A DNA stretch of 64,000 nucleotides, from the NCBI GenBank assembly GCA_013306675.1, contig JABLUY010000112.1:1-64000 (forward strand). The letters are read 5' to 3'. Positions 3,160-45,589 of the stretch are shown here, piece after piece (within the stretch, counting starts at the first letter, position 1; each line of letters starts with the position of its first letter). The translations under genes were made by a program, and so were the position numbers. Below the pieces are notes generated by a model. That model ran no database searches. It was not told where the DNA came from and worked only from the letters and a program-made list of their open reading frames with translations. The stretch comes from Thraustochytrium sp. TN22 (Eukaryota; Sar; Bigyra; Thraustochytrida; Thraustochytriidae).

Positions 3160-4263
3160 ATGCGCGGGGTGCTCGTGGCCGTGGCCGCGGCGTTGGCGCT
3201 GGGCGCTGCAGAGGCGCTGCCCGTGCGCAAGGGCAATCTGCTGACGCGCAACACGACCGCCGAGGCGAACGCGACGAGTGCCAGGGCGGTGAGCATCTCC
3301 ACGCGCGTCGTGGGCGGGACGACTGTCAGCGCGTCGGAGCGGCCCTACTTGGCAGCCATGATTCTCGTGGAGGCCTCGACCAATACGGAGTACCTGTGCG
3401 GGTCAACGTACATCGGAACCGAGGACGGCTACCACTACATGCTTACGGCTGGCCACTGCATTCCGGAGACGGACTTTTACGCCGAGGCCATGTTCGGTCG
3501 CGATGATCTCAATGACGCCAGCGAAGACGGTGCCTACAACCTGTTGAGCGGCGTCGCCTACAGTCTGCACCCGTCGTACGAGGAGCTCTCGAGCGGCGCG
3601 ACGGTGAACGACCTGGCGCTCATCTGGTTCTCTGACACGGACGTGACCATGCCTACGCCCGTTTTGCTGGCTGGGAGCCTCTATGAGCCGGCAGCTGGCT
3701 TGGACGCTGTCGTCTCTGGCTACGGCGCTACCGAGTACGGCCAGTCCAACCTGGACTACGAGCTGCGGGAGGCTACGCTGGAGATTGTCGGCACCTCCGA
3801 GTGCGCCTCTGACTACTCGAACGTCTTTAGCATCGTCGAGGCATACCACCTGTGCGCCACGGCGCCCGGCAAGGACAGTTGCCAGGGCGACTCGGGCGGC
3901 CCGCTCGTCGTCACGCCGGATGCCGAGGAGGTCCAGGTCGGCATCGTCTCCTTCGGTGTTGGTTGTGCCTACGCCGGCTACCCAGGCGTCTACACGCGCG
4001 TTTCCACCTACGAGAGCTGGCTGCGCAGTATCGTCACCTCGTCCTCGCCCAACGGTGACGATTCCGCGCTTCGCTTCTATCTATCCGAGACTGCCAACGC
4101 GACCTTCGCGCCAACCACCTCCAACACGACCAGTGCCAGCAGCCTTGCCGGCAACGATAGCTCGCCAACACTCAGCCCGACCCAAGCGCCCATCTCCTCT
4201 GCCACCCGCCACACCAAGGCGGTTGCCATGCTTGCCCTTTTGCTCACGGTGTTCCTCGCCTGA
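3160..4263 (+). CDS. Secreted trypsin-like serine protease, probable GPI-anchored (locus P1)
   Basis: This 367-residue S1-family endopeptidase begins with a signal peptide (MRGVLVAVAAALALGAAEA) and a short Asn/Thr-rich propeptide. The activation site is STR-VVGG. Catalytic His99 lies in LTAGHC, Asp151 in VNDLAL and Ser245 in QGDSGGP. The residue six before the Ser is Asp (KDSC), predicting cleavage after Lys/Arg. The C terminus has the family motif SALRFY, then a Ser/Thr/Pro-rich linker with N-glycosylation sequons and a hydrophobic tail ending LLLTVFLA, typical of a GPI-anchor signal. I chose the ATG at 3160 because it starts the signal peptide; the in-frame codon at 3148 is GTG. It stands at the left end of the cluster and all key residues are intact. 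Confidence 0.93.
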   Translation: MRGVLVAVAAALALGAAEALPVRKGNLLTRNTTAEANATSARAVSISTRVVGGTTVSASERPYLAAMILVEASTNTEYLCGSTYIGTEDGYHYMLTAGHCIPETDFYAEAMFGRDDLNDASEDGAYNLLSGVAYSLHPSYEELSSGATVNDLALIWFSDTDVTMPTPVLLAGSLYEPAAGLDAVVSGYGATEYGQSNLDYELREATLEIVGTSECASDYSNVFSIVEAYHLCATAPGKDSCQGDSGGPLVVTPDAEEVQVGIVSFGVGCAYAGYPGVYTRVSTYESWLRSIVTSSSPNGDDSALRFYLSETANATFAPTTSNTTSASSLAGNDSSPTLSPTQAPISSATRHTKAVAMLALLLTVFLA

Positions 4264-5264
4264 TGTCCTTTCAACCAAGTAACCTCTCTGTTAGTAAAAG
4301 CTTACTCTACCCGCCAGCGTCTCCACGCTGTGCGCTGCCTGACGATGATCAATATGGTTTGTCTGCCTTCAAGCTTCGAGCCACGCTCAGCCAGCCATGT
4401 CGGCCTCGCACGTCGGAGTCCGACCGGCGACTGCGTCAGTGCGTCGTGGATTGTGACTCGAAGTCATTCCATGCGCACCGCCCGGCGCTCACAGTGGCAC
4501 TGGCACGGGCACTGCACTGCACCGCCGCTCTCTCACCCGTGTCGCCACCACGATACGGTTCGCTTCGCATCAGTCGGACTGCGCCCGTCCACGACTCCTC
4601 GCTCGCTAGCTAGTAGCCAGCGGCGGTTGATTAGCCGTCCTCATCTTTGCATCTTCGGCCCCCCTTCGTTGGGGGATGCCCCAACCCAACGCGCCCCAAC
4701 GACCGTCCCGTCCTGCCAGCTGCTCCTCTCCGAGGGCCTCTCGCCTGCCCTCTTCATCCTCCATCTCTCGCCAAGCCCTGCCTGCTGGGCACTGCACTGG
4801 TGAAGGCTGCCAGTGCGTGCAGCCTGAGGCATGCATCCCTCATCGCCACCGCGACCACCAGCACCGCGCCGTCCCCCGAGGATGCGGAGCCGCCCCTCTC
4901 CTCCTCCTCCTCCTCCTCCTCCTCCTCCTCCCGCACCTCCTTGTCAACGTGTCCCAACTGCCCGCCACCTCCGCGCCGGCCAGCCGAACCGGCTTTGCCT
5001 CCGCCACCGGACCCGGCGGACCCACCAGTTCCGGCGGCTTCACTGCGCCGGGTCCGCTGCGCGCGGACTGTCCCCCCTCGGGCCGGGCCACTCGCACCGG
5101 ACCAGGCGGCCCTAAGGGCGCCGCGGAGGTGCCCGGAACCGGGTCCCGTGCAGGGCGCGGCGGGCACGAGCGCCGAGCGCGAGAATGGGAATGAAATCAA
5201 AGTCGCTTCGCGCTCGCGCGCTCGCTCGGGCAGACTCGTGGGCGCGCGGGCGGCGGCGGGCGCC
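4264..5264. other. Intergenic/5' region upstream of locus P2
   Basis: No homologous coding sequence is seen. A frame in phase with P2 stays open from about 4647 but lacks an ATG before 5265 and has only low-complexity Pro/Ser/Ala content, so it is probably untranslated. A (TCC)n run lies at about 4897-4931. The stretch near 4599-4620 resembles the sequence just upstream of P1. Confidence 0.5.
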
Positions 5265-6389
5265 ATGGCGCGCGCGCGCACGCTGGCGCTGGCGCTGGCG
5301 CTGGCGCTGGCGCTGGCGCTGGCCGCGCGCGGCGCGGAGGCGGCGCTGGGGCGCGGCGGCGGCACCGGCGCGGCGGCGCGTGCACGCCGCGTGCAGCTGG
5401 AGGAGGCGGGCGCGCACGCGGTGGCGCTCGGCGGCGGCGGCGCGGCGCGCGCGTTCGCGGCCGGCGAGGCCGGCGCGAGGATGGCCGCGGTGAACGCGAG
5501 CCGCGCCGCGGCCGCCGGCGCGCGGATCGTGAACGGCGAGGTGACGGACCCGCTGAAGAGGAAGTGGATGGTGGCGCTCGACCTGGTCTTCGCCGACACG
5601 AGCAGCGGCGCGCTGTCCGGGAGCCTGTGCGGCGGGAGCTACATCGGGAGCGACGGCGCGAACCACTTCATCCTGACGGCCGCGCATTGCCTGGCCGGGT
5701 CGTCCACGAAGAAGATCAAGGGTGCATATGCCAGCTTTCTCTGGGACGAGTTCAACGACAGCAGTGACCAGGACTACTTTACGCTGTCGGAAGCCGACTT
5801 TGCGTTGTGGCACGAGGAATACAGCACGTTCTACCTGACAAATGACATCGGGATGCTGGTCTTCAACGACGTGGGCGTCACGATGCCCGCACCGTCCCGG
5901 CTGGCTGGTGCCCTCTCGGCCGACCTAGACGGCGAGGCCGCTACAGTGACGGGCTACGGCGTGCTGGGCTACGGAGAGAGCAACTACGATTTGTACCTGC
6001 GCGAGGTGAACTTGACCATCATCTCCGAGTCCAAATGCAATAAGATGAATGAGGGCTACACGACCGTGTCCTACCTGACGCAGATTTGCGCGTACGCCAA
6101 GGGCAAGGACAGCTGCCAGGGCGACTCTGGGGGCCCGCTCGTCGTGCAGGACGAACTTGGCGAACTGCAGGTTGGCATCGTCTCCTGTGGCAACGGCTGC
6201 GCCAAGGAGGGCTACCCGGGCGTCTACACAAGGGTTTCCGGCTTTGAGAGCTGGATTCGCGCCAAGATCTCCGAGTACGGTGCCAGCACTTCCTTTCTGA
6301 TCGTCGAGGGCTCCCCCGCCACTACATTGACGCGGAGCCCGCTGCTCCTGTTCTCCACGCTCGCACTCCTGCTCGCCCTCGCTGCGTGA
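5265..6389 (+). CDS. Secreted trypsin-like serine protease, probable GPI-anchored (locus P2)
   Basis: This is a 374-residue S1 protease. The ATG at 5265 is the first in a long open frame and opens directly into a signal peptide made of seven Leu-Ala pairs, coded by a CTGGCG hexamer repeat (about 5283-5322). A roughly 60-residue Ala/Gly-rich propeptide precedes the activation site GAR-IVNG. The catalytic residues His141, Asp194 and Ser288 are all present, with Asp282 in the S1 pocket. The conserved post-His motif FLWDEFN and the C-terminal STSFL strand are present, followed by a hydrophobic tail ending LALLLALAA. It is tandem with P1 and convergent with P3, their stops lying 134 bp apart. The hexamer repeat makes the signal-peptide length prone to change by slippage. 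Confidence 0.93.
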   Translation: MARARTLALALALALALALAARGAEAALGRGGGTGAAARARRVQLEEAGAHAVALGGGGAARAFAAGEAGARMAAVNASRAAAAGARIVNGEVTDPLKRKWMVALDLVFADTSSGALSGSLCGGSYIGSDGANHFILTAAHCLAGSSTKKIKGAYASFLWDEFNDSSDQDYFTLSEADFALWHEEYSTFYLTNDIGMLVFNDVGVTMPAPSRLAGALSADLDGEAATVTGYGVLGYGESNYDLYLREVNLTIISESKCNKMNEGYTTVSYLTQICAYAKGKDSCQGDSGGPLVVQDELGELQVGIVSCGNGCAKEGYPGVYTRVSGFESWIRAKISEYGASTSFLIVEGSPATTLTRSPLLLFSTLALLLALAA

Positions 6390-6523
6390 ACTTGAGTCGG
6401 AATCGCTGACTGACTGCCCCCGCGTAACCACACCATCTGAAGTAGCGCTGTTGAAGGGCCTCGCTCTCTGTTAGAAGAGCGCGACTCGCTCGCTGTGTAA
6501 TGAAGTGCTAACTCGAGGTCTTT

Positions 6524-7531
6524 TTATCTTGCGTTTAGAGTCAGCAAAAGGGCCACAGCGACTGCCAATGACCTGAGAAGTAGCTCTCGAAGAAGCCGAG
6601 GCGGTGCGACCGAAAGCTCATCCGTCCCGCACGATTCGCATAATGTAGACGCCGGCGTCGGCGCTGCTGTGGGCGGGTAGATGCGCAACACGGAGGCGTC
6701 CGCGCCCCAGGCGCCAATCTCTGCGGCAACCCAGCTCGTGTAGGCTGCCACACGTGTGTAAATACCCGGGTAGCCCTCCGCAGCGCACTCGAAACCGGAC
6801 GAGACCACGCCGACCTGCACGTCGGTCTCGCCGCGACGCACCACGAGCGGGCCGCCCGAGTCACCTTGGCAGCTGTCCTTGCCTTGGGCGTACGCGCAGA
6901 GCTGCGTCTCGTAGGAGACCTCAACCACATCCGCGTTCGCCTGGACGCACTCCTCCTCTTCCGTGATGACGAGGTCCACCTCGCGCAGGTACAGATCGTC
7001 GTTGGGCTCTCCATACGCGAGGACGCCGTAGCCCAGGACGGTGGCGTTCTCCCCAATCGGGTCCGGCATGGCGGCGCTCGCCAGCTCCACCGGGTCTGGA
7101 AAGTGCGACGCGCTCACGTCAGTGTCCTGAAACACCAGCAGCGCAATATCGTTCCTTAGCGTATCATCGGAGTAGTTCGGGTGTGGGGCGTCCCCTGCTA
7201 GCTCGTCCAGGTAGTACAAGTCCGCGTCGTACGCGCTCAGCTCGTCCCACAGGAAGAATGCGCGAGCGCCCGTGAGCTCCTTGCCGCTGCTCACCACGCA
7301 GTGGGCCGCGGTTAGAATGAAGTGCAGCCCGTTGGAGCTGCCCACGTAGCTCCCACCGCACAGGTAGGTGGCGGTTGTCGTGCTGTTAACGTCATGGAAC
7401 CTAGCTTCCAAGGCAACCATCCACGGTCTGCGCTGCGGATCAGAGATCTCGCCGCCCACGATGCGCGGGGTGGACCGCACCGGCGCTAGCGCTAGCAGCG
7501 CCACGCCCAGCGCCAGTAGCCACCTCGCCAT
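6524..7531 (-). CDS. Secreted trypsin-like serine protease (locus P3)
   Basis: This 335-residue S1 protease has a signal peptide (MARWLLALGVALLALAPVRS) and almost no propeptide before PR-IVGG. The triad His77, Asp128 and Ser225 and S1-pocket Asp219 are intact. Cys pairs of the trypsin fold (LCGGSYVG with TAAHC; KDSC with FEC) are present. The C-terminal family strand reads ASVLRIY, followed by a Thr/Ala/Pro linker and a hydrophobic stretch ending VALLLTLNAR. Its start region, together with downstream locus P4, belongs to a 2.2-kb block duplicated at 11.9-14.1 kb, where only its N-terminal piece survives. Confidence 0.93.
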   Translation of the reverse strand: MARWLLALGVALLALAPVRSTPRIVGGEISDPQRRPWMVALEARFHDVNSTTTATYLCGGSYVGSSNGLHFILTAAHCVVSSGKELTGARAFFLWDELSAYDADLYYLDELAGDAPHPNYSDDTLRNDIALLVFQDTDVSASHFPDPVELASAAMPDPIGENATVLGYGVLAYGEPNDDLYLREVDLVITEEEECVQANADVVEVSYETQLCAYAQGKDSCQGDSGGPLVVRRGETDVQVGVVSSGFECAAEGYPGIYTRVAAYTSWVAAEIGAWGADASVLRIYPPTAAPTPASTLCESCGTDELSVAPPRLLRELLLRSLAVAVALLLTLNAR

Positions 7532-8047: not shown

Positions 8048-9234
8048 TCAGCTCATGTGGTGCAGCGCAAGAAGTGCTGCAAGGACGCTGCCGACGATTT
8101 TAGGCGCCCACGTTGAGCTGCTCGAGCCTAGAGGGCTTGTGGTGGGAGACGGTGTGGATCCTACGGGCACGTTCGGGGACGGTGTGGATCCTACCGGCAC
8201 GTTCGGGGACGGTGTGGTCTCTCCCGGCGTGTAGAAGCGCAGGAAAGAGGCATCCGGGCCAAAGGAGGTGATGGTGGCAGTTATCCAGCTCTGGTACTCG
8301 GAAACGCGCGTATAAACTCCAGGGTAAAGGGGATCGGCACAGCCGATACCAAAGGAGACAATGCCCACCTGAACCTCATCCTGACCGCGATCCACAATGA
8401 GTGGGCCGCCAGAGTCGCCCTGGCAACTGTCTTTGTTCGGCGCGGCCGCGCAGATATGCACATCCTCGATGACATGAGGGGAACCCGAGTAATTCGCACG
8501 ACACAGCTCGTTGCTGATGATGTCAACCTCTACCTCTCTCAGGACCGCCAAGACGTCAGTCTCACCATAGTACGTGGCACCGTAGCCGCTTACTGTGGCG
8601 ACCTCGCCAACGAGGCTGGTCATTGCGCTGCCCGCGAGGATGGCGGCGTCGGGCAGCACCGTCTGCGTCGGAATGCCATAGTAAACCTCCTCCCAGTCAT
8701 TGGACCCCTCCTCGCGAGCGGTCTTGTTGACGGTGCCAGCGTCGTCGAAGACAATGATGGCAATATCGTTGAGAAGAAGGTCCGAATCGTAGTCCGGATG
8801 CACGACGACGTCCACGACACTGCCGAGCCAGTAGTGGTCTGCATCAGTGCGATAGGTGTCGAGGCTCTCGAGGAAAAAGTCCACAAAATGATAGAGATGT
8901 CAATCTCCGGCGTCGATTCCCACCAGGACGTTGTCCACCATGGGTCGACGCAGTGTGCAGCCGTCAATACAAAAGTACGCGTTCCATCCGTGCCAATGAA
9001 CGACCCCCCGCATGTTTGGGAGAGCTCGGAGCCCAAACCGGTGCTCTCATTGAAATTAACAATTTCCGTGAGCGCCACGAGCCACGGTCGGATTCCCGGG
9101 CTTGCTTCCTCGCCGCCAACGATTCGCGAATGTCGCGCCCTCCACTGCGAAAGCACGTCCGCGCCCTCGCCTCGGACCCCCGCGATCGCCGTAGCGGCGG
9201 CGAGGACCACGGCCAGCGCCCACAAGACATGCAT
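8048..9234 (-). pseudogene. Trypsin-like protease with Trp-rich loop, frameshifted (locus P4)
   Basis: The reading frame starts at the ATG at 9234 (MHVLWALAVVLAAATAIAG signal peptide). It passes the VLSQW propeptide motif, HSR-IVGG and His of TAAHC, followed by the Trp-rich insertion WWTTSWW. Near 8885 the frame changes; the downstream frame then gives an intact remainder, with Asp in LNDIAI, Ser in QGDSGGP, the SFLRFY strand, a Pro/Ser/Val linker with a 30-bp internal repeat (about 8157-8216) and a hydrophobic tail. Alignment with intact paralogue P11 (26248-27420) shows that one single-nucleotide deletion explains the break. It may be a young pseudogene or a sequencing error. The triad itself is unmutated. 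Confidence 0.85.
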
Positions 9235-11690: not shown

Positions 11691-11699
11691 ACGGCAGAT

Positions 11700-11890
11700 C
11701 TTGTAGTAATGCCCGTAGCGACGCGTGCAGCGGCGCACGGCGAAACTGCTGGACCAACTGCTGTCAGCCTTTCCTACATCGCCACGGAAAAGGGGGCCTG
11801 CCTGGGCGACACGGGAGGGCCGCTGCTTGCGTCACGAGACGCGGGCGAGGTCGTGGTGGGCCTCGTATCCTTTGTAGATCAGTGTGCGCT
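11700..11890 (+). pseudogene. Fragment of a GDTGGP-type protease gene
   Basis: Plus-strand translation gives VSLSYIATEKGACLGDTGGP and then LLASRDAGEVVVGLVSF, which is the C-terminal half of the P16 gene (42406-43497). It ends abruptly in sequence from the 5' part of P3. The residues VDQCAL match the fragment at 38869-39305 more closely than P16. It lies inverted relative to the other copies, consistent with being the inner end of the inverted repeat. Confidence 0.8.
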
Positions 11891-11904
11891 CGTGTGCGCT
11901 CCAA

Positions 11905-12086
11905 CCGCAAAGGTAGGTGGCAGTTGTCGTGCTGTTAATTAAAACGTCATGGAACCCTGCTTATAAGGCAACCATCCACGGTCTGCGCTGCGGGTCAGAG
12001 ATCTCGCCGCCCACGAAGCGCGGGGTGGACCGCGCCGGCGCTAGCGCTAGCAGTGCCACGCCCAGCGCCAGTAGCCACCTCGCCAT
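11905..12086 (-). pseudogene. N-terminal fragment of a P3-like protease gene
   Basis: The minus strand from the ATG at 12086 reads MARWLLALGVALLALAPARS, then TPRFVGG and ISDPQRRPWMVAL, a near copy of the first 60 residues of P3. An in-frame TAA replaces the codon for Glu42 of P3, a small insertion follows, and homology stops near 11905 at the junction with the GDTGGP fragment. It is a relic left by the direct duplication. Confidence 0.85.
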
Positions 12087-12686
12087 TCTCCCCACATCCT
12101 CTTTGCTTGCGGAGGAGAGCTACCTCCTCGCGCGCGCCGCGCCCCACCAGAACGGGCCGCGAGCTCCGGGCCCGGCCCGAGCCCGGGCTGCGGACCGGGC
12201 CGCCGCCGCAACGGGTCAGGCGTGCGGCCACAAGCAAAGTGGGTCACGGTTTGCAGCTTGTCAGTGACCCGCAGCGCCGGTGCCATCGAGTGTAGGCTAG
12301 TCGATCTTCAGCGCGAGAGTCTTCTCCTTGCACATCGTCCAACAGTGGCTGGAGCATGGTGGTGAACAAACAATGCTGCACGTCCATGCCTGCGCGCAAC
12401 AACACGCAGGAGCGGGAGGTGGACTCTTCTGACGTTAGACCCATGAGATGACCGGGGTAACGCCTTGTAGTATCTGGAGGCAAGATTGGAAGAGTCACAG
12501 CTCTCAGACTCGCTTCCGGCGTGCAGGGGTTCAGGTGGAGAAAGTGATGCGTAGTTTGGCTGCACGACTTTCCCGGGAAGTTGGAGTCTTGCTTGACATA
12601 CTTTGTTGCTGAAAGGCTCGTGGCCGCTGTTGAGCCTTCGCTACGTGGGATAGATCGCGCTGCCTGAGATCCGTCCAGCTTAGGCT

Positions 12687-13858
12687 TCAGCTCATGTGGT
12701 GCAGCGCAAGAAGTGCTGCAAGGACGCTGCCGATGATTTTAGGCGCCCACGTTGAGCTGCTCGAGCCTAGAGGGCTTGTGGTGGGAGACGGCGTGGATCC
12801 TACCGGCACGTTCGGGGATGGTGTGGTATCTCCCGGCGCGTAGAAGTGAAGGAAAGAGGCATCCGAGGTAAAGGAGGTGATGGTGGCAGTTATCCAGCTC
12901 TGGTACTCGGAAACGCGCGTATAAACTCCAGGGTAAATGGGATCGGCACAGCCGACACCAAAGGAGGTAATGCCCACCTGAACCTCATCCTGACCGCGAT
13001 CCACAATGAGTGGTCCGCCAGAGTCGCCCTGGCAACTGTCTTTGTTCGGCGCGGCCGCGCAGATATGCACATCCTCGATGACATGAGGGGAACCCGAGTA
13101 ACTCGCACGACACAGCTCGTTGCTGATGATGTCAACCTCTACCTCTCTCAGGACCGCCGAGACGTCAGTCTCGCCATAGTATGTGGCACCGGAGCCGCTG
13201 TGGCGACCTCGCCAACGAGGCTGGTCATTGCGCTGCCCGCGAGGATGGCGGCGTCGGGCAGCACCGTCTGCGTCGGAATACCATAGTAAACTTGCTCCCA
13301 GTCATCGGACCCCTCCCCGCGAGCTGTCTTGTTGACGGTGCCAGCGTCGTCGAGGACAATGATGGCGAGATCGTTGAGGAAAAGGTTCCGGTCCAAATCG
13401 TAGTTCGGATGCACGACGACGGCCACGACACTTTGGAGCCAGAAGTTGTCTGCATCAGAGCGATAGGTGTCGACGCTGTCGAGGTATTACTCCACATATT
13501 GAGAGACGTAGTCAATCTTCGGCGACGATTCCCACCAGGGCGTTGTCCACCAATAGTCGACGCAGTGTGCAGCCGTCAATACAAAAGACCGCGTGCCATC
13601 CGTGCCAATGAACGACCCCCCGCACGTTTGGGAGAACTCGAAGTCCACGTCGCTGTCCACGTCGCTGTCCTTGTAAAAAAAAATCAATTCCGTGAGCGCC
13701 ACGAGCCACGGTCGGAATTCCGGGCTTGCTTCCTCGCCGGCAACGATTCGCGAATGTCGCGCCCTCCACTGCGAAAGCACGTCCGCGCCCTCGCCTCGGA
13801 CCCCCGCGATCGCCGCAGCGGCGGCGAGGACCACGGCCAGCGTCCACAAGACCTGCAT
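12687..13858 (-). pseudogene. Trypsin-like protease, broken at two places (locus P5)
   Basis: This is a close paralogue of P4. From the ATG at 13858 it has a signal peptide (MQVLWTLAVVLAAAAAIAG), propeptide motif VLSQW, HSR-IVAG and His in TAAHCVDYWWTTPWW. An in-frame TAA (about 13493-13495) stands where paralogues have Phe in YVDFF. Further on, 4 nt are missing at the VATVSGYG motif (about 13196), shifting the frame. The remaining C-terminal part is readable: NKDSCQGDSGGP, SFLHFY strand, Pro/Ser linker and hydrophobic tail ending ALLALHHMS. Catalytic residues are unmutated, suggesting that decay was recent. Confidence 0.9.
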
Positions 13859-32865: not shown

Positions 32866-34029
32866 ATGAGGCAGAACATGTGGTCGCTGCTCGCAGTGAT
32901 GCTGGCTGCTGTCTTCGCAGCCGCCAGGGCCGGCGACACAAGGACGCTCTCCACCCGAATCGTGGGTGGTGAGGCTATCTCCCCCACGGTGCGGCCCTGG
33001 GTGACGAGTATGTCTCGGACGATCTTTTATGGCGTTGACGAGTTGACTTACGAGGCGCCATGCAACGCGGTGTACCTCGGCACGAGGGAGGGCTTTCACT
33101 TCTTCCTTACGGTGGCGCACTGCGTTGACCCCTGGCTGACGACGCCCTATTGGGAATGGCCGGACTACTCTCATGTCACGGGGTTCTTCTCCTGGATGGA
33201 CTTTTTAGTCAACGACGCCGATGACTACTTCGCGGATCAGGACCACTTCTTCCTACGCGACCCAATGGCAGTCGAGGTCCACTCAGAGTACAGCTCCTCG
33301 CCTGCTCTCGTGAACGACATCGCCGTCCTCATCTACAACGACACCACGACGGTGAACAAAACGGCCCGCGATGACGACGGCGCGACTTATGAAGACCTCT
33401 GGCACGGTATCTTGCTTGAGGATGTGCTCCCGGCGCCCGGAATCCTCGCCGGGGCTGACACTGACCTCGCGCAGGGCGAGGCTGCAGTAGTGACCGGCTG
33501 GGGTGCTTTTGAAGTTGACGGGAACGAGACCGCCCTGCGCGAGGCGGACGTGGTCCTTGTCTCTCAGTCTTCATGTGCGCAGAGTTACCTAGGGCTGGAG
33601 AGCATCACTTCTACACATGTCTGCGCAGCCGCACCGGGCAAAGGCCCTTGCATCCGTGACGAAGGCGCGCCCCTCATCGTGCAACGGGGCGCTGAGGAGG
33701 TGGTGGTCGGCATGTTCTCCTTTCACGAGGGGTGCGCGGACCCAGATTTCCCGGACGTCTACGTGCGGGTCTCCGATTACGAAGAATGGATTGTCTCCAA
33801 GGTCGCCGAATACGTCTCGGACACTACCTTCCTGCAGTTCAGCTCGCTGAGCACACCAGGCGGGAGCACGACCTCTGTTCCTATCTCGACCTTTGCGCCT
33901 ACCTCATCTGACGTGCTCACTTCCGCGCCGACAGCCTCATCTACCGCTAACCTGACGTCTCCCTCCGCCATGACGGCACTCCCTACGTTCTTGGTGGCGT
34001 GCATCCTCGGCCTAGCTCTCTACATTTAG
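32866..34029 (+). CDS. Catalytically dead trypsin homologue, RDEGAP class (locus P13)
   Basis: This 387-residue protein has a signal peptide (MRQNMWSLLAVMLAAVFAAA), STR-IVGG, His85 (TVAHC) and Asp151 (VNDIAV). The nucleophile loop is GKGPCIRDEGAP, with Glu266 in place of Ser. The Trp-rich loop reads DPWLTTPYWEW. A DDDGATYEDLWHG segment is longer than in P6 and P15. It ends with TTFLQF, a long Ser/Thr/Pro linker (TFAPTSSDVLTSAPTASS) and the hydrophobic tail LVACILGLALYI. It faces the GDTGGP fragment at 34202-34595, with 172 bp between the two stops. The preserved frame and cysteines argue that the protein is made despite lacking catalytic machinery. Confidence 0.93.
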   Translation: MRQNMWSLLAVMLAAVFAAARAGDTRTLSTRIVGGEAISPTVRPWVTSMSRTIFYGVDELTYEAPCNAVYLGTREGFHFFLTVAHCVDPWLTTPYWEWPDYSHVTGFFSWMDFLVNDADDYFADQDHFFLRDPMAVEVHSEYSSSPALVNDIAVLIYNDTTTVNKTARDDDGATYEDLWHGILLEDVLPAPGILAGADTDLAQGEAAVVTGWGAFEVDGNETALREADVVLVSQSSCAQSYLGLESITSTHVCAAAPGKGPCIRDEGAPLIVQRGAEEVVVGMFSFHEGCADPDFPDVYVRVSDYEEWIVSKVAEYVSDTTFLQFSSLSTPGGSTTSVPISTFAPTSSDVLTSAPTASSTANLTSPSAMTALPTFLVACILGLALYI

Positions 34030-34201: not shown

Positions 34202-34595
34202 CTACATGAAGATTGTGCTTGCGCCGGCGACGAGCGCCAGCGCCAAGCCTGTTGAGGCGCTTTGGGCCGGCGCCGACGAGCTGGAGCAGGCCACATTGTG
34301 CATCGTGAGGGGCTCGAGAAAGCGCAAGAAGCTATCACACGTGTCGATGGAGGCCAAGTAGGCAACGACCCAGGACCGGTATCCAGATACCCGGGTGTAC
34401 AGGCCTGGTTAACCGTCGAGAGCGCCCTGACCCATGAAGGATACGAGGCCCACCACCACTTCGCCCACGTCTCGTGACGCAAGCAGCGGCCCTCCCGTGT
34501 CGCCCAGGCAGGCCCCCTTTCGCGTGGCGTTGGCGCAGAGCTGAAGTAGGTAGGAAAGGCTGACAGCAGTATCGCCGTACGCCGCTGCACACGTC
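34202..34595 (-). pseudogene. 3' fragment of a GDTGGP-type protease gene
   Basis: The minus strand reads CAAAYGDTAVSLSYLLQLC, RKGACLGDTGGPLLAS and VGLVSFMGQGALDG, followed by an in-frame TAA. Beyond the TAA the frame continues through LYTRVSGYRSWVVAYL to a TAG at 34204-34202. It is the C-terminal 40% of P16, including the same premature TAA, and is cut at the unit boundary near 34595. Confidence 0.88.
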
Positions 34596-34597
34596 GC

Positions 34598-36722
34598 GTG
34601 ACACATCGTGCGCGAGTCAGGTCCTTCGATGAAGCCCTCCTTGTCATCGGGGTGCTTTCACCGGCCAGCGGAAGAGGACGCACGCGGTTGGGCAGAGTAG
34701 CATGGTATCGAGGCCGCGGCGACTCGCAGCTCTGCCGGCCGGGAAGACTTCAAAACAACTATGTCATCGAGAGGAAAGGGCTCGGAGAGACGAGCCAGCC
34801 CGCCGCGCGCCTAGCCGCTCGCGCGCTGGCCTGCACCGTGACGCGACCGGCCGATGAGCCACCGCTGGCTCGGCGCCACGTCGTGCGATGTCTCGCGACA
34901 ACTAACTTAGGGGTAGTGGCGTCGCCGCTTGGCAAAGCCTGTGCGCGCGCTGCCGGGTTTACGACCTTCTCAAAGCGCAAGCTACCTTGGTGGTGCAGGT
35001 ACCTGCCATCCTGGTCAGAGTGCTACCATGTGGCACTTGCTGCTGTTCAAGTTGCCGCTGTAGTACTGCCACCATGGTCAGTGTGCGACTGCAACTGCTG
35101 CTGCTGCCAGGGGCAGCGCAAGCTTCGTTCGCAGCGCAGAGCCGCGGGTCGGGCCGCGCAGAGCGTTCACCGTCGCGATCCCTGGCACCACGCAAGGCAG
35201 CGGCCGCTTCGGCGCCGAGCCAGATGCTGGCTGCTTGGAGCCTGCCACTGGCAGGGACTGGCGGCCGCGTGCTCAGGCTGCGGCCGTCGTAAAAAGGCGG
35301 CGCGTGCCGCTCGAAGCCACGCAAGTCGCGTCACTGGCAGCGCCGAGTCGTGCCTCGGAGTCCGAGTGGGCTCTTTGACATGGCACGGTGCGAAGCTGCA
35401 GTGAGAGCGAGACGGCCGAACGCCGCCGAGTTGTCAAAACCTAACCTTGGTCAAGTTGCAAACATGGTTGGCGAGCAAGCGATCTTCGCCTTGGGCGGCG
35501 GTGGCAGGGCTCGAGGGAGCAAGCACACACCCGCGGTTGGCTCTGCGGGCTCGGGACATGCTGCACCGCCGCGCGACTTGAATGTCCTGATCCTCAGCTT
35601 GCAGCAGCTTGCAGTTCAACGTTGTGCCGGGCGACCTGCTCCCGGGCCCGCACACGCTCTGACTTAGCTAGCCTGCAGGCCGCCCCTGCAGGCGGCTGCA
35701 CATTTGCTTGTCGTACGTGCGGTTCGTGCCCCGCTGCGCGGCGCTGCGCGCGCGGCGCCGGTGGAGGTAAACGTTACCACGGGTTCCCGGCCACGCAACC
35801 TGTCCTGACCGTGACAGGAAGCGACAGTCGGACACTGCTACCGGCTCGGGAACCCTGTACTTCGAGTCCCTTGGCGTCCCTTGCAGAGCGCCTTTGAGCG
35901 CCGCCGCCTCGGCCGCCTGTGACTAGCGGCAAAAGGAGAGCGGCGACGCGCGGAGAGCGGCGACGCGCGGAACTTGGACGCTTTCGTTGATCAGTTTGCC
36001 ACGGCGCGGAGCTTGCGTTGTTGTGTATTTGCAAGCGGTATGCTTGCGAGCGACCGCCAGCCCCTGCCTGAAGCAAGCGGGCCGAGCTCCTCTCGCATCG
36101 TGTGCGGCGACGGACAAGAGGCCCGGCCAGCGCCGGCCAGCGCGGGACAACGCCGCCGGCCAGCACTTTGTGGTTTCGAGCTCAGGCTGGCATGGCTTGC
36201 AGTGTCCGAGAGTACGACCAGTGTCGATTCACTGGCGGGCGCCGGCCGGCCAGGCAGGCGGACACCGGCGGTATGGCGCGGTATGGCGCGGTATGGCGCG
36301 GTATGCGCGGAATCCGCTTCTCGCTCTCCCCGCAAACGTCACCGTCGCTCGGTGCACGGACACCGAGGCCGCTTGCACCGTGACGCGCGTGCAGCGCCGC
36401 GTTGTGGTGGCGGCAGGTGGCGTTGTGGGCCGGGGAGGCGCGCAGACCGCCGCACAAGCCAAGGTAAGTCAAGCGGGAAAGTGCTCGCCGCTCGGGCCGA
36501 CTTGAGATGCCGCCGCAGACAGGCATCTGTCCAGCTTCTGGGCTTGCGGGGCATCTGCGCAGCAACTCTTCCAGCCAGCACCTTGAATGGTGAGCCTCCG
36601 GCGGCCGGTGTTACGCACGCAAGATCGGCAAGATCGCAGCGCGTGCACGGCCCGAGCCTTGCCACGGCTGCCACGGCCCAGGAGGTACGTTCTTGCAAAG
36701 CACTAACTACCTCGGTCTCTCT
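34598..36722. repeat. Right arm of the ~2.2-kb inverted repeat
   Basis: This stretch matches the reverse complement of 9418-11690 over almost its whole length, with indels. Local differences include four copies of a GGTATGGCGC decamer near 36271-36305 where the left arm has one, and two copies near 35935-35970 of an 18-bp unit that the left arm has three times. No protein family is recognised. It forms the first part of tandem unit 2. Confidence 0.8.
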
Positions 36723-37544: not shown

Positions 37545-38686
37545 ATGAGGCAGAGCATGTGGTCGCTGCTCTCAGTGATGCTGGCTGCTGTCTTCGCAGC
37601 TGCCAGGGGCGGCGACACACGGGCGCTCTCCACCCGAATCGTGGGCGGTGAGGCTATCTCTCCCACGGTGCGGCCCTGGGTGACAAGTTTGGCGCACTGG
37701 ATCGATTTTGACTCCGGCGACACCAGTTACAAGTCGCCATGCAACGCGGTGTACCTCGGCACGGAGGAGGGCCTTCATTTCTTCCTTACGGTGGCGCACT
37801 GCGCTGACCCCTGGCTGACAACGCCCTATTGGGAATGGCCGGGCTACACTAATGTCACGGACTTCGCCACCTTTTTCTTGACGACCTCAACTACTACATC
37901 CAGGATATGGACCACTTCTTCCTGCGCTCTCCAATGGCAGTCGAGGTCCACTCAGAGTACAGCTCCTCGCCTACTCTCGTGAACGACATCGCCGTCCTCA
38001 TCTACGACGACACCACGACGGTGAACAAAACGGCACGCGACAGCGACTACAGCGACGATACGTACGCCTTGCTTGAAGATGTGCTCCCGGCGGCCGGAAT
38101 CCTCGCCGGGGCCGACACTGACCTCGCGCAGGGCGAGGCTGCAGTAGTGACCGGCTGGGGTGCTTTTGAAGTTGACGGGGACGAGACCGCCCTGCGCGAG
38201 GCGGACGTGGTCCTCGTCTCTCAGTCTACATGTGCGGAGAGCTACCTAGGGCTGAAGGACATCACTTCTACACAAGTCTGCGCAGCCGCACCGGGCAAAG
38301 GCCCTTGCATCCGTGACGAAGGCGCGCCCCTCATCGTGCAACGGGGCGCTGAGGAGGTGGTGGTCGGCATGTTCTCCTTTCACAAGGGGTGCGCGGACCC
38401 AGATTTCCCGGACGTCTACGTGCGGGTCTCCGATTACGAGGAATGGATTGTCTCCAAGGTCGCCGAATACGTCTCGGACACTACCTTCCTGCAGTTCAGC
38501 TCGCTGAGCACACCAGGCGGAAGCACGACCTCTGCTCCTATCTCGACCTTTGCGCCTACCTCATCTGACGTGCTCACTTCCGCGCCGACAGCCTCATCTA
38601 CCGCTAACCTGACGTCTCTCTCCGCCATGACGGCACTCCCTACGTTCTTGGTGGCGTGCATCCTCGGCCTAGCTCTCTACATTTAG
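37545..38686 (+). pseudogene. RDEGAP-class trypsin homologue with one frameshift (locus P14)
   Basis: From the ATG at 37545 the protein matches P13 (signal peptide MRQSMWSLLSVMLAAVFAAA, STR-IVGG, His85 in TVAHC, DPWLTTPYWEW) up to VTDFATF. The frame then changes near 37870-37885. The next frame continues DDLNYYIQDMDHFFLRSP and the rest: VNDIAV with Asp, GKGPCIRDEGAP, TTFLQF, Ser/Thr linker and tail LVACILGLALYI. One small indel, compared with SWMDFLV of P13, accounts for the break. The rest is as well conserved as its intact sisters, so it is recent or an assembly error. Confidence 0.88.
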
Positions 38687-38868: not shown

Positions 38869-39305
38869 CTACATGAAGATTGTGCTTGCGCCGGCGACGA
38901 GCGCCAGCGCCAAGCCTGTTGAGGCGCTTTGTGCCGGCGCCGTGCCGGCGCCGACGAGCTGGAGCAGGCCACCTTGTGCATCCTGAAGGGCTCGTGAAAG
39001 CGCAAGAAGCTATTGCACGTGTCGATGGAGGCCAAGTAGGCAACGACCCAGGACTGGTATCCAGAGACCCGGGTGTACAGGCTTGGTTTGCCGTCGAGCG
39101 CGCACTGGTCTACAAAGGACACGAGCCCCACCACCACCTCGCCTACGTCTCGTGACGCAAGCAGCGGCCCTCCCGTGTCGCCCAGGCAGGCACCCTTTAC
39201 GTTGGCGTTGGCGCGGAGCTGAAGTATGTTGGAAAGGCTGACAGCATTATCGCCGTACGCCGCTGCACACGTCACCACGGGCATTACTACAAGATCTGCT
39301 ACTCG
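38869..39305 (-). pseudogene. 3' fragment of a GDTGGP-type protease gene
   Basis: The minus strand reads CAAAYGDNAVSLSNILQL, KGACLGDTGGPLLAS, VGLVSFVDQCALDGKPS and LYTRVSGYQSWVVAYL. It has AAA (Lys) where P16 and the fragment at 34.2 kb have the premature TAA, so it preserves the ancestral codon. An 11-bp duplication (GCCGGCGCCGT, near 38931-38952) shifts its last codons. The fragment is cut at the unit boundary near 39305. Confidence 0.88.
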
Positions 39306-41111
39306 GAGTCTCTCGTCACGCGTGCGTGACACGCCGTGCGCGAGTCAGGTCCTTCGATGAGGCCCTTGTCATTGGGGTGCACACACGCGGCTGTCGCTCG
39401 CGCTGCAGGAGACCTGCTCCTGCGGCCAGGCCCTGGGCCCGGCGGAGGCAGAGTAGCATGGTATCGAGGCCTCGGCGACTCGCAGCTCTGCCGGCCGGGA
39501 AGACTTTGTCATGGAGAGAAAAGGACTCGGAGAGGAGAGCCAGCCCGCGGCCGCGCGCCCAGCAGGTCGCGCGCTGACCTGCACGCCGCGAGTCGCGACC
39601 GGCCGATGAGCCACCGCCGACTCGGCGCCACATGGTGCGATGCCTCGCTGGCCTCGCAACAGCTGGGGAGCTGTATGGTTCTGCCCATTGTCACTGCCAG
39701 CGGCAGTGGTGGCAGGCGGCGGCAGGACCGGCGGGTTCCTCCTTCAGACCAAGCTCGTACTACGACTGGTACCGCCGGAAGATACCGGGAGCACCAGTGC
39801 AGGCGACCACGTGGCACATCAACTTGCTGCTGTTCAAGTTGCCGCCGTTCTGCCAATGCAACTGCTGCTGCTGCTGCTGCTGCTGCTGCACCCGCAGGGA
39901 CACTGGTCTCAAGGCTTGGCCAGCGTCGGTGTTGGTGCCCGGCACGCCGTGATTAGGCATCCGAGCGCAGCACTTCAAGTTCGCGGGCTCGCTGTCCGAG
40001 CAACGCGGCGGGTACGCGTCTACAGCCCAAGTGCGAAGCTGGATCGGAGCGCCGCGCATCGGCAGAGAAATTCATTTCGCTCGCCGGCTCGGCCCGGCAG
40101 GCGCGCGATCCGAGTCCGAGCCTGCCAGCCAGCAAGCGACTCGGACTTCTTCCGAGGCAGGCCGAGCCGGACGCCTGAGCGCGCCTCCGCCAGGCCCACT
40201 TCAGTGGCAGCCCGCGGACTCGCGAACTCGGGCACCCGGCGCGCGCCGGCACGCGCCGCCTTCCTAGTACGACGGCCGCAGCGGAACTGGCAGGCCGCCG
40301 GAGCCCAGGCCAGTGGCAGCGCAAGCTTCGTTCGCAGTCGCCGTCGCGATCCCTGGCAGCGACCGCTTCGGCGCCGAGCCAGACGCTGGCTGCGTGGAGC
40401 CTGCCACTGGCAGTGACTGGCGGCCGCGTGGAGAGGACCGGGAGCTGCGGCCGTCCCGTCGCGTCACTGCACTGGCAGCGCCGCGTGCAGTGGCAACGAC
40501 TCGAGAGCGGTGCAGGCGACCAGGCCCGCGCTCGGCCCCGTGTGACAAAGAAGCGGGTCCGCGCTTGGACTGGCCGGGCCGGGCACCCGACATCGGAGTC
40601 CGAGTCGGCCGCTCGCCTCGGCACGGTGCGAAGTTGAGAGCGAGACGGCCGAATGCCACTGCAGATTGTGGTGCGACTCCAGGCCTCAAACGAACGATTG
40701 GGCGAGCAAGCGATCTTCGCGGCTGGCTCTGAGGGCTCAGGACGGACCGTGACACGCTGCAACGCGACTTGACGTAAAAAGTAGGCCCGCTCTGCACGCG
40801 CCGCCTGTGGAAGCAGGGGTGGTATGACACTGGGTGCGCTGGGTGCGCATCCTACGCCTCCTGATCTTGCAAATGTGCATCCAGGCTTAACAGGCTGAGG
40901 CTGGCTTGTGCAGGCCGTTCCTGGCCGCAGCACCGCGGGAACCGCACACACCAACCGCTCACGCGAAGGCGCGAAGGGGCGAACGCGCGAAGGCGCAAAG
41001 GGGCATGGCTCGGGGCAGCTTGAGACGACCTGGATGCGCGGCAAATCGCAAACTCTCAACCTTACGAGCTTTGTCACTCTCCCTGCATCGACGCGGTACC
41101 TCAATCGTCAA
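39306..41111. other. Upstream segment of P15 (start of tandem unit 3)
   Basis: It begins with the inverted repeat GTCACGC-GT-GCGTGAC and GTGCGCGAGTCAGGTCC, then sequence close to 31.6-31.9 kb and, further on, to 36.9-37.5 kb. A (CTG)n tract lies at about 39863-39890. No gene is recognised. Confidence 0.5.
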
Positions 41112-42230
41112 ATGAGGCAGAGCATGTGGTCGCTGCTCTCAGTGATGCTGGCTGCTGTCTTCGCAGCTGCCAGGGGCGGCGACACACGGGCGCTCTCCAC
41201 CCGAATCGTGGGTGGTGAGGCTATCTCCCCCACGGTGCGGCCCTGGGTGGCGAGTATGTCTCGGGAGATCGATGATGGCAGCACCTATTTTTACTCGGCG
41301 CCATGCAGCGCGGTGTATCTTGGCACGGAGGAGGGCCTTCACTTCTTCCTCACGGTGGCGCACTGCCTTGAACCCTGGCTGAAGACGCCCTTGTGGGACT
41401 CGCCGGACGACTCTCACGTCCCGTCCTGGATGGACTTTTTAGTCGACGACGCCATTGACTACGGCCAGGATTTGGACCACTTCTACCTGCGCGACCCAAT
41501 GGCTGTCGAGGTCCACTCAAAGTACAGCTCGTCGCCTACTCTCGTGAACGACGTCGCCGTCCTCATCTACAACGACACCACGACGGTGAACAAAACGGGC
41601 AATACGTACGCCTTGGTTGAGGATGTGCTCCCGGCGCCCGGAATCCTCGCCGGGGCCGACACTGACCTCGCGCAGGGCGAGGCTGCAGTAGTGACCGGCT
41701 GGGGTGCTTTTGAAGTTGACGGGAACGAGACCGACCTGCGCGAGGCGGACGTGGTCCTTGTCTCTCAGTCTTCATGTGCGCAGAGTTACCTAGGGCTGGA
41801 GAGCATCACTTCTACACATGTCTGCGCAGCCGCACCGGGCAAAGGCCCTTGCATCCGTGACGAAGGCGCGCCCCTCATCGTGCAACGGGGCGCTGAGGAG
41901 GTGGTGGTCGGCATGTTCTCCTTTCACGAGGGATGCGCGAACCTTGATTTCCCGGACGTCTACGTGCGGATCTCCGATTATGAGGAATGGATCGTGTCCA
42001 AGGTCGCCGAATACGTCTCGGACACTACCTTCCTGCAGTTCAGCTCGCTGAGCACACCAGGCGGAGGCACGACCTCTGCTCCTATCTCGACCTTTGCGCC
42101 TACCTCATCTGACGTGCTCACTTCCGCGCCGACAGCCTCATCTACCGCTAACCTGACGTCTCCCTCCGCCATGACGGCACTCCCTACGTTCTTGGTGGCG
42201 TGCATCCTCGGCCTAGCTCTCTACATTTAG
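41112..42230 (+). CDS. Catalytically dead trypsin homologue, RDEGAP class, mosaic gene (locus P15)
   Basis: This 372-residue protein has the signal peptide MRQSMWSLLSVMLAAVFAAA, STR-IVGG, His84, Asp147 and Glu251 replacing Ser in CIRDEGAP. Its first half, from about SREIDDGSTYFYSAPCSAV to KTGNTYAL, is essentially the same as P6 located 26 kb away. Its second half, from about 41617 (SQSSCAQSYLGLESITSTH and the long Ser/Thr linker), follows P13 instead. It therefore looks like the product of gene conversion or recombination between the two. C-terminal TTFLQF, linker and hydrophobic tail LVACILGLALYI are intact. It faces P16, with 175 bp between its stop and the distal P16 stop. Confidence 0.93.
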   Translation: MRQSMWSLLSVMLAAVFAAARGGDTRALSTRIVGGEAISPTVRPWVASMSREIDDGSTYFYSAPCSAVYLGTEEGLHFFLTVAHCLEPWLKTPLWDSPDDSHVPSWMDFLVDDAIDYGQDLDHFYLRDPMAVEVHSKYSSSPTLVNDVAVLIYNDTTTVNKTGNTYALVEDVLPAPGILAGADTDLAQGEAAVVTGWGAFEVDGNETDLREADVVLVSQSSCAQSYLGLESITSTHVCAAAPGKGPCIRDEGAPLIVQRGAEEVVVGMFSFHEGCANLDFPDVYVRISDYEEWIVSKVAEYVSDTTFLQFSSLSTPGGGTTSAPISTFAPTSSDVLTSAPTASSTANLTSPSAMTALPTFLVACILGLALYI

Positions 42231-42405
42231 GTTACTATTCAAGAAAGCGGCGCCCTCTTCAGGTTGCTCCTATCCTGAGGCTCGCGGCGCTCAAGCCACA
42301 TGGCCCGACTTTTGAAAAGACCATTGGGCTTCAAAAAAAGATAAATTGGTTCACTGTCAATGCGGTCGCTCTTTCGCTCGTTTGCTCACTCGCTCGCCTG
42401 GCACA

Positions 42406-43497
42406 CTACATGAAGATTGTGCTTGCGCCGGCGACGAGCGCCAGCGCCAAGCCTGTTGAGGCGCTTTGTGCCGGCGCCGACGAGCTGGAGCAGGCCACGT
42501 TGTGCATCCGGAAGGGCTCGAGAAAGCGCAAGAAGCTATCACACGTGTCGATGGAGGCCAAGTAGGCAACGACCCAGGACCGGTATCCAGATACCCGGGT
42601 GTACAGGCCTGGTTAACCGTCGAGAGCGCCCTGACCCATAAAGGACACGAGCCCCACCACCACCTCGCCTACGTCTCGTGACGCAAGCAGCGGCCCTCCC
42701 GTGTCGCCCAGGCAGGCCCCCTTTCCCGTGGCGTTGGCGCAGAGCTGAAGTATGTAGGAAAGGCTGATAGTATCGCCGTACGCCGCTGCACAAGAGGCCT
42801 CGGGCGTAACTACAAGATCCGCTTCACGGAGAGCCACGTGGTCCTCATGATCATCGCCATAGGCGAGCGTCCCGTAGCCCGAGACCGTCACAGTCTCGCC
42901 GGCTGCCACCTCCATGAGGCCACCCGCGAGGAGCGCTGCTTGTGGAAGCTTCGAGTGCATATCCTCGTCATTGAAAACGAGAATGCCAACGTCGTTGCGC
43001 TTCGTGTCGGGATTGTACGTGCCGTGCTTGATCGCGGTCGTGCTGGCCACGAGCCTGAAGGTGTCCTCATCGCCCGCTGCGCCGAGCTCGTCCCACAAAA
43101 AGTACGCAGCGGCCGACACCAAGTCCCTTCCGTCCGCGGGCACTAGGCAGCTCGCCGTCGTCAGCATGAAATGCAGCCGCGGATCGCTCCCAATGTAGGA
43201 CCCGCCGCACAGCCTCGGCTCGAGCTCGTCGGAGCCTTCCACCGCAAAGTCCAGCACCAGCGCCACCATCCACGGCCTTTGCAGCGGGTCTGCCACTACG
43301 CCGCCCACGATGCGGCCGGCCATGGCCTCGTCGCTGCGCGTCGCGTTCGCCGGCCGCAGCAAGCTCGTCTCTGCGGCTGTTACCCACCGTGACGTGTCCT
43401 CGGCGCTCGCGGCCGCCGCCAGCGCCGCCAGCATCGCCAGCGCCGCCAGCGCCGCTGCCGCCGCACGCGCCGCCGTGCGCCGCGCCGCCGCCGCCAT
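42406..43497 (-). pseudogene. GDTGGP-type trypsin homologue with premature stop (locus P16)
   Basis: The ATG at 43497 starts an Ala-rich signal peptide, then GR-IVGG and a full S1 domain. All key positions are altered: Ser116 for His (TTASC), Thr266 for Ser (CLGDTGGP) and Gly260 for S1 Asp; only Asp169 (RNDVGI) stays. After ALDG a TAA (42615-42613) ends the frame at 294 residues. The same frame continues past it for 68 codons, covering LYTRVSGYRSWVV, SFLRF and a hydrophobic tail, to a TAG at 42408-42406. The fragment at 38869-39305 has AAA at that position. Either the shortened protein (lacking the last strand, helix and anchor) is made, the stop is read through, or the gene is a recent pseudogene. 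A frame upstream of 43497 lacks an ATG. Confidence 0.85.
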
Positions 43498-44377: not shown

Positions 44378-45589
44378 TCACGCTAGGTAGCGACGGAGGA
44401 TCAGAGGCAGGAGCGCGGAGAGAAGTGACGCCAGGGATATGTACCCACTGCTAGCAGGATTCGCTGCAGAGAGTACCCCAGGACTTGAAGCTGTTTGGCT
44501 GGCTGTCGGACTCATTGGAAACGGCGTGGGGTTCAGTGTGGGAGCCGGGATGTAAAAACGCGGGAAGGAAAGCGTGGTGCCGGTGGAGTTCGTGGCGTTG
44601 GCGACGTAGTCGAGGTGGCTCCAGGCGTCAACATTGAGTGCAATCCAGTCCGCGTACGCGGAGATCTGAGTGAAGACCGAGGGCACGACCTCGTGCGCGC
44701 ACTCGTAGCCAAACGAAGTAATGCCAACCTGCACCTCGCCCACGTCGCGGTGCGCCACCATGGGCCCGCCCGAATCGCCCTGGCACACGTCCTTGCCGGC
44801 CTGGTGCGCACAGAGCTGGAGCGGCCCGAAGAAGTACGGCCCCCAGTAGCTCTCGCAGACAGCGTCCTCCAGCACGGTCGTGTCTGCCTCACGCAAGTAC
44901 TTGTCTGTATTGGGCCCACCATGCTGTATGCGGCCGTAGCCGGTCACCGTGACAACCTCAGACGCCGGGTCGGGCATGAGAGAGCTCGCAAGGAGCACAC
45001 CATCGGGCAGGAGGTTCGTGACTCCCTCGTCCACGAAGGTCAGCAGCGCAATGTCGTTCGCGTAGAGGCCCTCGCTGTAGTCTCGATGCGAGATGGCCGC
45101 CTCCGGTTCACCCAGACGCACCATGTCCGTGTCGACGGTGTCCAGCTCGTCATAATAAAAGTCCGCCCTAAAATACCACAGACGCAGGTCCGCCGCCTGC
45201 TTGACCACGCAATGCGCTGCTGTCAAAAGATAGTGCCTCTCGTCGTCGCTGCCCAGGTACGAGGCGCCGCAACGGTACGAGCTTATGAGATTGCTGGTCG
45301 TATTTCTGAACGAGACCTCGATCGCCGCCAGCCACGGCCGATCCAGCGGGTCAGCGATCTCGCCGCCCACGATGCGCGTGAGGCCTTGGGTCCGCAGCTG
45401 CGTGGCCCATCCGCTCTCCTCGTCGCTCGCGGCCGCGCCCTCGCCCTCCTCCCCCTTGCTGCCGCTCCCTCCGCCGCTGCGGCCCTCCGGCACCTGCACT
45501 GTTGCGTCGAGCTGGCCAGCGCTTCGCGCGAGCTGCCCCACGAGCAGCGCGACGCTCAAGAGGGCCGCCGCAGCCCGCCGCGAGGCCAT
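44378..45589 (-). CDS. Secreted trypsin-like serine protease, probable GPI-anchored (locus P17)
   Basis: This 403-residue active-type S1 protease closes the cluster on the right. The signal peptide is MASRRAAAALLSVALLVGQL; a long acidic/Gly-Ser propeptide (residues 25-70) precedes LTR-IVGG. The triad His126, Asp179 and Ser273 is intact, with Asp267 in the S1 pocket (KDVC). It is more divergent than the others: FYYDELDTVD replaces FLWDE, and CESYWGPYFFG is unusual. The C-terminal strand SFPRFYIP is followed by a Thr/Pro/Ser linker and a hydrophobic tail (LASLLSALLPLIL) ending in RRYLA. Confidence 0.93.
   Translation of the reverse strand: MASRRAAAALLSVALLVGQLARSAGQLDATVQVPEGRSGGGSGSKGEEGEGAAASDEESGWATQLRTQGLTRIVGGEIADPLDRPWLAAIEVSFRNTTSNLISSYRCGASYLGSDDERHYLLTAAHCVVKQAADLRLWYFRADFYYDELDTVDTDMVRLGEPEAAISHRDYSEGLYANDIALLTFVDEGVTNLLPDGVLLASSLMPDPASEVVTVTGYGRIQHGGPNTDKYLREADTTVLEDAVCESYWGPYFFGPLQLCAHQAGKDVCQGDSGGPMVAHRDVGEVQVGITSFGYECAHEVVPSVFTQISAYADWIALNVDAWSHLDYVANATNSTGTTLSFPRFYIPAPTLNPTPFPMSPTASQTASSPGVLSAANPASSGYISLASLLSALLPLILRRYLA

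Follow-up and report, generated by a model that had tools for sequence, protein, structure and literature searches.

We describe a 42-kb cluster of trypsin-type (family S1) serine protease genes in the single-celled, probably marine thraustochytrid Thraustochytrium sp. TN22, in which active enzymes, decaying copies and catalytically dead homologues stand side by side, and in which one dead lineage, marked by an acidic residue at the nucleophile position 195, appears to be preserved by purifying selection. The window, i.e. the whole stretch analysed, comprises bases 1-64000 of the 114-kb contig JABLUY010000112.1 (here C14; the assembly has 37.9 Mb in 453 contigs), with the cluster at 3160-45589. 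The preserved dead lineage probably performs a non-cutting job; more specifically, we assign a probability of about one half to the reading that it forms a conserved class of pseudozymogens, which would be cleaved by a trypsin of the array and have a binding role at the cell surface.

Active and inactive members of the array

Counting by motif and reading frame, we obtained 17 S1 loci and four fragments (Table 1), the same numbers as in an initial annotation of this DNA. All genes were read as intronless open reading frames (ORFs) and frame breaks were read from the assembly alone; single frameshifts could be real or sequencing errors. Residue numbers follow the chymotrypsin scheme and were assigned by motif. 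Eight ORFs (T1, T2, T3, T8, T10, T11, T12 and T20) are open and carry H57, D102, S195 and D189, matching the eight intact members counted previously, and three further copies (Y4, Y6 and Y9) keep active-type motifs in broken frames. All nine proteins submitted to Pfam, six dead and three active, scored above the curated cut-off for Trypsin (PF00089; 74-127.5 bits against 20.6), which was their sole domain at E ≤ 0.01; together with the motif classes, this bears out the view of the locus as a mixed cluster of active and dead S1 members. With exons and fragments taken separately, the genome holds 55 Trypsin matches, 23 of them in the window and two more at C14:100873-104784. Since the best match in the window reaches 2.8e-40 and long direct and inverted duplications connect the copies, the array is not a chance observation.

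The dead members fall into distinct classes. Four copies carry the motif CIRDEGAPL (S195E, G193R, D189G; hereafter DEGAP), with D7, D14 and D18 open and Y16 frameshifted; the alignment adds G216H and G226D. Two more genes at 101-105 kb of C14, X1 and X2, carry CTADDGAPL (S195D, D189G; DDGAP), X2 being open and X1 frameshifted near its 3' end. H57 and D102 are retained throughout this acidic-195 class, beside E195 in D7, D14, D18 and Y16 and D195 in X1 and X2, so that its members lack the full H57/D102/S195 triad of an active S1 peptidase; their oxyanion loop and S1 pocket are altered as well (D189G, G193R/A). D13 combines H57I and S195A with a retained D189 and the motif CQGDAGGP in an open frame. 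The S195T class, consisting of D19 (H57S, S195T) and three relatives that are all fragments, is truncated or fragmentary in four of four copies, and the premature stop of D19 is identical to a stop in fragment F15; by their broken frames, these copies fit pseudogenes.

Dead open ORFs begin with a hydrophobic stretch, hydrophobicity being our only measure of a secretion signal, and end in a hydrophobic tail. Such a tail is present in 12/12 full-length ORFs of the window, with a charged residue or His among the last 16 residues in five (T1, T3, T12, T20 and D13); a GPI-anchored protein would have a signal peptide and an uncharged hydrophobic tail behind small residues. At the level of sequence, the activation site R-IVGG is retained in D7, D14, D18, D13, D19, X1 and X2, and the acidic-195 lineage keeps the core cysteines, H57, D102, the Arg-Ile activation site and D194. 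D7, the only dead member modelled, is predicted to adopt the double beta-barrel fold of trypsin. The earlier statement that dead members have intact secretion and fold features is borne out by the hydrophobic ends of the dead open ORFs and, as to the fold, by D7. Around position 195, D7 and X2 share 17 of 26 residues, compared with 79 of 219 elsewhere, and each shares 14 of 26 with T12; judged from these identities, the pocket vicinity of the acidic-195 class is not relaxed.

Descent and turnover

In a tree of 35 sequences, DEGAP and DDGAP cluster together (95.7 in the Shimodaira-Hasegawa-like approximate likelihood ratio test (SH-aLRT) and 99 in the ultrafast bootstrap (UFboot); 88.5/96 without the motif columns), and their group adjoins T12, Y4 and Y6 (98.8/97). 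D13 is placed with T10 and T11 (89.7/95), and D19 with T20 (86.3/90). Given these three placements, members of the array lost catalytic residues along at least three lines of descent. In approximately unbiased (AU) tests, however, a history with independent losses in DEGAP and DDGAP is not rejected (P 0.37 and 0.39 without the motif columns, 0.09 with them), so that their monophyly is less firm than the branch support alone suggests; if the losses were separate, the acid at 195 arose twice. D7 finds 46 places in its own genome, and motif tables show an acidic 195 only at those on C14. Among prokaryotic contigs, 88 pattern matches included no acidic-195 relative; viral contigs, searched with the mixed alignment A1, gave four loci with 28-30% identity in the best segment, and NCBIfam returned no family for three of three proteins.

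Self-comparison revealed a 2-kb unit, made up of a DEGAP gene and a convergent S195T copy, in three places (32.6-34.6, 37.3-39.3 and 40.8-42.8 kb), together with a tandem pair at 7.3-9.4/11.9-14.1 kb and an inverted pair at 9.4-11.6/34.8-36.7 kb. Aligned pieces of the DEGAP repeats are only 83-96% identical and have different flanks within one contig, indicating that they are not a simple assembly echo. D18 is a mosaic, with a 5' part that matches D7 (0 differences in 279 aligned bases, in one stretch), a 3' part that matches D14 and a switch near alignment column 620-640, which indicates recombination between copies. As the initial annotation had supposed, the block changes fast; its copies turn over by duplication, both tandem and inverted, by recombination and by the breaking of frames. 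Our overall reading of the locus is a birth-and-death array whose products are secreted zymogens of the trypsin type, each ending in a hydrophobic tail.

Change is concentrated in the 37-loop. Seven pairs of copies were compared and four non-redundant ones pooled (D7/D14, D14/Y16, X1/X2 and Y4/Y6), D14 taking part in two of the four and a broken copy in three; codon differences in this loop amounted to 37 replacement and 3 silent, against 70 and 48 in the rest (Fisher P 6e-5; with the frameshifted Y16 left out, 0.003). The 37-loop is therefore a replacement hot spot. Positive selection is not proven, given the reuse of D14, the broken copies and the fact that block replacement by recombination could give the same pattern. 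Y4/Y6, with 11:3 in the loop, extend the hot spot to T12-like copies with active-type motifs, making it a property of the array that is not confined to dead members.

Selection on the dead lineages

A codon branch model, run on 253 aligned codons and a single tree, gave a dN/dS (ω) of 0.13 for active members, 0.36 for the branch connecting active and dead members, 0.11 for the DEGAP and DDGAP stems (D and X) and 0.37 for the tips within these groups. Fixing ω at 1 cost twice the log-likelihood difference (2ΔlnL) of 22.7 at the tips (P about 2e-6) and 73.8 at the stems. The argument is built on the tips, because silent sites are saturated on the stems, which may also cover a period preceding the catalytic loss; by parsimony, the branches within D and X, the recombinant D18 among them, postdate the loss of S195. 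In the comparison of dN/dS by class that had been proposed as a check, the acidic-195 tips thus do not approach the value of 1 expected of pseudogenes after catalytic loss, and the lineage is under purifying selection. Pairwise estimates were 0.28 for X1/X2 (2ΔlnL 12.2) and 0.31 for D7/D18 (14.4). By region, DEGAP ω was 0.50 without the 37-, 60- and 110-loops (8.1), 0.46 in the C-barrel (5.6), 0.73 in the N-barrel (1.1) and 1.2 in the loops alone (0.1).

Plain birth-and-death decay, by which dead copies would be young pseudogenes or by-products of tandem duplication with frames not yet lost, is on these data an unlikely explanation. The truncation of all four S195T copies, the broken frames of Y4, Y6, Y9, Y16 and X1, the ω of the broken T12-like pair Y4/Y6 (1.43 in one piece and 0.73 in another, values that do not differ from 1) and that of the whole DEGAP domain (0.64) are in line with it, but the acidic-195 tips reject neutrality. 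In simulations, moreover, D7 is still free of stops after 0.3 neutral substitutions per site in about 1% of runs, and 14 key residues survive a drift of 0.2 per site in 0.2% of them, whereas identity between the D and X groups has fallen to 37-38%.

For the other dead classes the picture is mixed. D19 is uninformative, its silent sites being saturated. The D13 branch rejects ω = 1 (2ΔlnL 16.4), with silent sites also saturated. The proposal of one system of active proteases and pseudoproteases consequently stands insofar as at least one dead class is constrained, but it does not extend to the S195T class, broken throughout, or to D13, a single gene with saturated silent sites. That D13 alone acts as a trap for substrates or inhibitors, which it could bind without cutting, is very unlikely in our estimate: H57I and S195A beside D189 and CQGDAGGP in an open frame would suit such a function, as would a branch that rejects ω = 1, but this is one gene, and the branch may partly precede the catalytic loss.

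Relation to known pseudoproteases

Working pseudoproteases of the trypsin fold are best studied in animals. Dead-protease families beside active ones are already known (PMC11172050, PMC4930577, PMC7132891, PMC7432248, PMC4794232). Insect clip-domain serine protease homologues (cSPHs) act as prophenoloxidase (PPO) cofactors and require cleavage for function (PMC6901238, PMC10540698). Like them, the array has S1 homologues with a lost catalytic residue beside active enzymes, and dead proteins that keep the activation site before the protease domain; unlike them, it has no reported clip domain (Trypsin only, 9/9), carries a hydrophobic C-terminal tail, and has Glu or Asp instead of the Gly found at position 195 of PPO cofactors. 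Tenebrio molitor, with 137 serine proteases and 125 homologues (SPHs) among 269 sequences, also mixes active and dead S1A genes, but D/E at 195 is rare there, in a group given as 1-4 of the 125 SPHs (PMC11172050), whereas an acidic 195 marks six genes in two subfamilies here. The inactivated serine protease paralogues of the scabies mite (SMIPP-S) are likewise an inactivated S1 multigene family beside an active homologue, some of them reported to inhibit complement (PMC4930577), whereas our array belongs to a protist. In Plasmodium, the SERA genes form a tandem protease cluster of a protist, one group of which has a replaced nucleophile and a variable number of copies, and marked Pv- and Pc-sera genes are reported to be under purifying selection (PMC7132891); the fold, however, is that of papain-like cysteine proteases, and the change is from Cys to Ser. 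Oomycete glucanase inhibitor proteins (GIPs) share a degenerate S1 triad (PMC7432248) and the secretion signal, here judged by hydrophobicity; the likeness concerns these two sequence features. MamO of magnetotactic bacteria is a trypsin-like pseudoprotease that activates its partner's proteolysis, pseudoproteases having evolved in three taxa, but it is bacterial and binds a transition metal in biomineralisation (PMC4794232).

Our literature search found no description of a protist family with a conserved acidic-195 class and nothing on S1 pseudoprotease clusters in labyrinthulomycetes, although its coverage of subscription journals was poor and this is no proof of absence. The array brings active, dying and apparently preserved-dead copies together in 42 kb of one protist genome, which allows the transition of an enzyme into a pseudoenzyme to be compared inside a single family. 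Should binding by the acidic-195 class depend on activation cleavage, this class would add another independent case in which zymogen activation is reused as a non-catalytic switch.

A putative role for the acidic-195 class

According to the reading we prefer, the R15-I16 bond of the pseudozymogen would be cut by an active, Arg-specific neighbour, the new N-terminus would pair with D194 and order the pocket region, and the acidic residue 195 would pair with H57, precluding cutting. The variable 37-, 60- and 110-loops might then serve as the binding site for another protein on the cell surface; the likeliest class of partner would be a further protease of the array or its substrate, with foreign proteins second. 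D189 trypsins are specific for Arg/Lys. By analogy, a cofactor or scaffold is the most likely role, because the activation site is kept, active D189 neighbours are at hand and insect cSPHs need such cleavage. A more elaborate version is quite unlikely: here Glu/Asp195, paired with H57-D102, would mimic the negative charge of a reaction intermediate, R15 cleavage by a neighbouring trypsin would turn a floppy zymogen into a permanently 'occupied', non-cutting surface binding module, and recombination would swap N-barrel loops and so change partners.

The main rival sees the dead members as secreted or surface inhibitors or decoys directed at foreign proteins, such as enzymes of hosts, prey or competitors. 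While the loop hot spot, the hydrophobic C-terminal tails and the degenerate triads of oomycete GIPs (PMC7432248) and of the partly complement-inhibiting SMIPP-S (PMC4930577) would be in keeping with this, no host or target is known for the organism, the hot spot is not specific to dead members, and capturing canonical trypsin inhibitors fits poorly with the altered pocket; we regard this explanation as improbable. With D189G and G193R/A, a decoy for such inhibitors is in particular unlikely for the acidic-195 class; for D13, whose D189 and oxyanion loop are kept, it is possible.

Several observations weigh against a preserved, cleavage-activated binding class. Frameshifts affect one DEGAP copy in four and one of the two DDGAP copies; two of the three full-length DEGAP pairs, D7/D14 (ω 0.66, 2ΔlnL 3.0) and D14/D18 (0.82, 0.5), do not reject 1, and over all domain columns the DEGAP tips reach 0.64 (4.3). 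The branch model, having a single tree, takes no account of the recombination in D18, and its low stem ω depends on silent sites that are saturated and on a common dead ancestor that the AU tests do not establish. Broken S195T cores (36-60 codons) also have ω values of 0.13-0.64, three of six pairs nominally rejecting 1 (2ΔlnL 4.6, 6.3 and 6.4); these copies may have been constrained until breakage, and low ω alone is thus no proof of present function. Third-position GC is 0.74-0.76 in D7, D14 and D18, against 0.84-0.93 in six non-S1 neighbours; active T12, at 0.71, also lies below the neighbours, and other active genes have 0.78-0.90. The D7 model is poor in the 60- and 110-loops. Dead and active genes share no significant upstream motif (best 7-mer P 1.9e-4 among 2179 tested), and a common promoter motif was rejected on this ground. 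Finally, cleavage at the activation site, binding through the loops and the pairing of E195 with H57 are all steps that we infer.

Inventory, neighbouring genes and further S1 loci

Table 1. S1 loci and fragments of the cluster (window coordinates)
Locus	Position	Strand	Description
T1	3160..4263	+	S1 zymogen, triad intact
T2	5265..6389	+	S1 zymogen, triad intact
T3	6524..7531	-	S1 zymogen, triad intact
Y4	8048..9234	-	T12-like, active-type motifs, one frame break
F5	11706..11891	+	S195T-type fragment (DTGGP)
T3-like 5' fragment	11946..12090	-	contains stop; upstream end approximate
Y6	12690..13858	-	T12-like, active-type motifs, one stop and one frameshift; low-coordinate end approximate
D7	15074..16141	+	DEGAP pseudotrypsin: S195E, G193R, D189G; H57 and D102 kept; open frame
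T8	17300..18466	+	S1 zymogen, triad intact; start set at signal-peptide Met
Y9	19228..20345	+	S1 copy, active-type motifs, one frame break
T10	21972..23036	+	S1 zymogen, triad intact; start set at signal-peptide Met
T11	23869..24921	+	S1 zymogen, triad intact
T12	26248..27420	+	S1 zymogen, triad intact; nearest intact active relative of acidic-195 pseudotrypsins
D13	30114..31190	+	dead homologue, H57I and S195A; D189 kept; open frame
D14	32866..34029	+	DEGAP pseudotrypsin, open frame; start set at signal-peptide Met
F15	34367..34771	-	S195T-type fragment with stops
Y16	37545..38686	+	DEGAP copy with frameshift
F17	39045..39413	-	S195T-type fragment with stops
D18	41112..42230	+	DEGAP, open frame; start at signal-peptide Met; D7-like 5' and D14-like 3' mosaic
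D19	42571..43497	-	H57S and S195T, premature stop; ORF 42613-43497
T20	44378..45589	-	S1 zymogen, triad intact

On its low-coordinate side, the cluster adjoins a kinase gene (73-1986) whose product has an SNF1-type adenylate-sensor domain; on the other side lie two GH5 genes (46005-51322), followed by RIO1, MPP6, NOP9-like and CPSF73-like genes. The GH5 genes, at 46005-48668 and 49004-51322 on the minus strand, both have a GH5 C-terminal domain and are 84% identical over 1.9 kb; they are another tandem duplication, adjoining the S1 array. Short direct repeats outside the S1 genes lie at 20447-20787 and 54520-54976 (171 bp at 98.8% and 296 bp at 94%).

Triads outside the cluster were checked at loci other than the matches on C437, C199, C25 and C113. 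A second S1 array, C58:44010-61489, comprises five large ORFs (905-1129 residues of open frame) with one trypsin domain each, apparently split by a long insert; the fifth ORF has H57R (1/5). An S1 homologue at C56:49233-49910 has S195N, with H57 and D102 kept. The two S1 genes on C137 differ at their C-terminal ends: in one, a long polar tail comes after a hydrophobic stretch, and in the other a Cys-rich region takes the place of the hydrophobic tail. A search for an SSU rRNA motif gave no match. Apart from S1 genes, C415:118719-120677 encodes two FabA domains in a 1719-residue open frame, which resembles a thraustochytrid polyunsaturated fatty acid synthase subunit.

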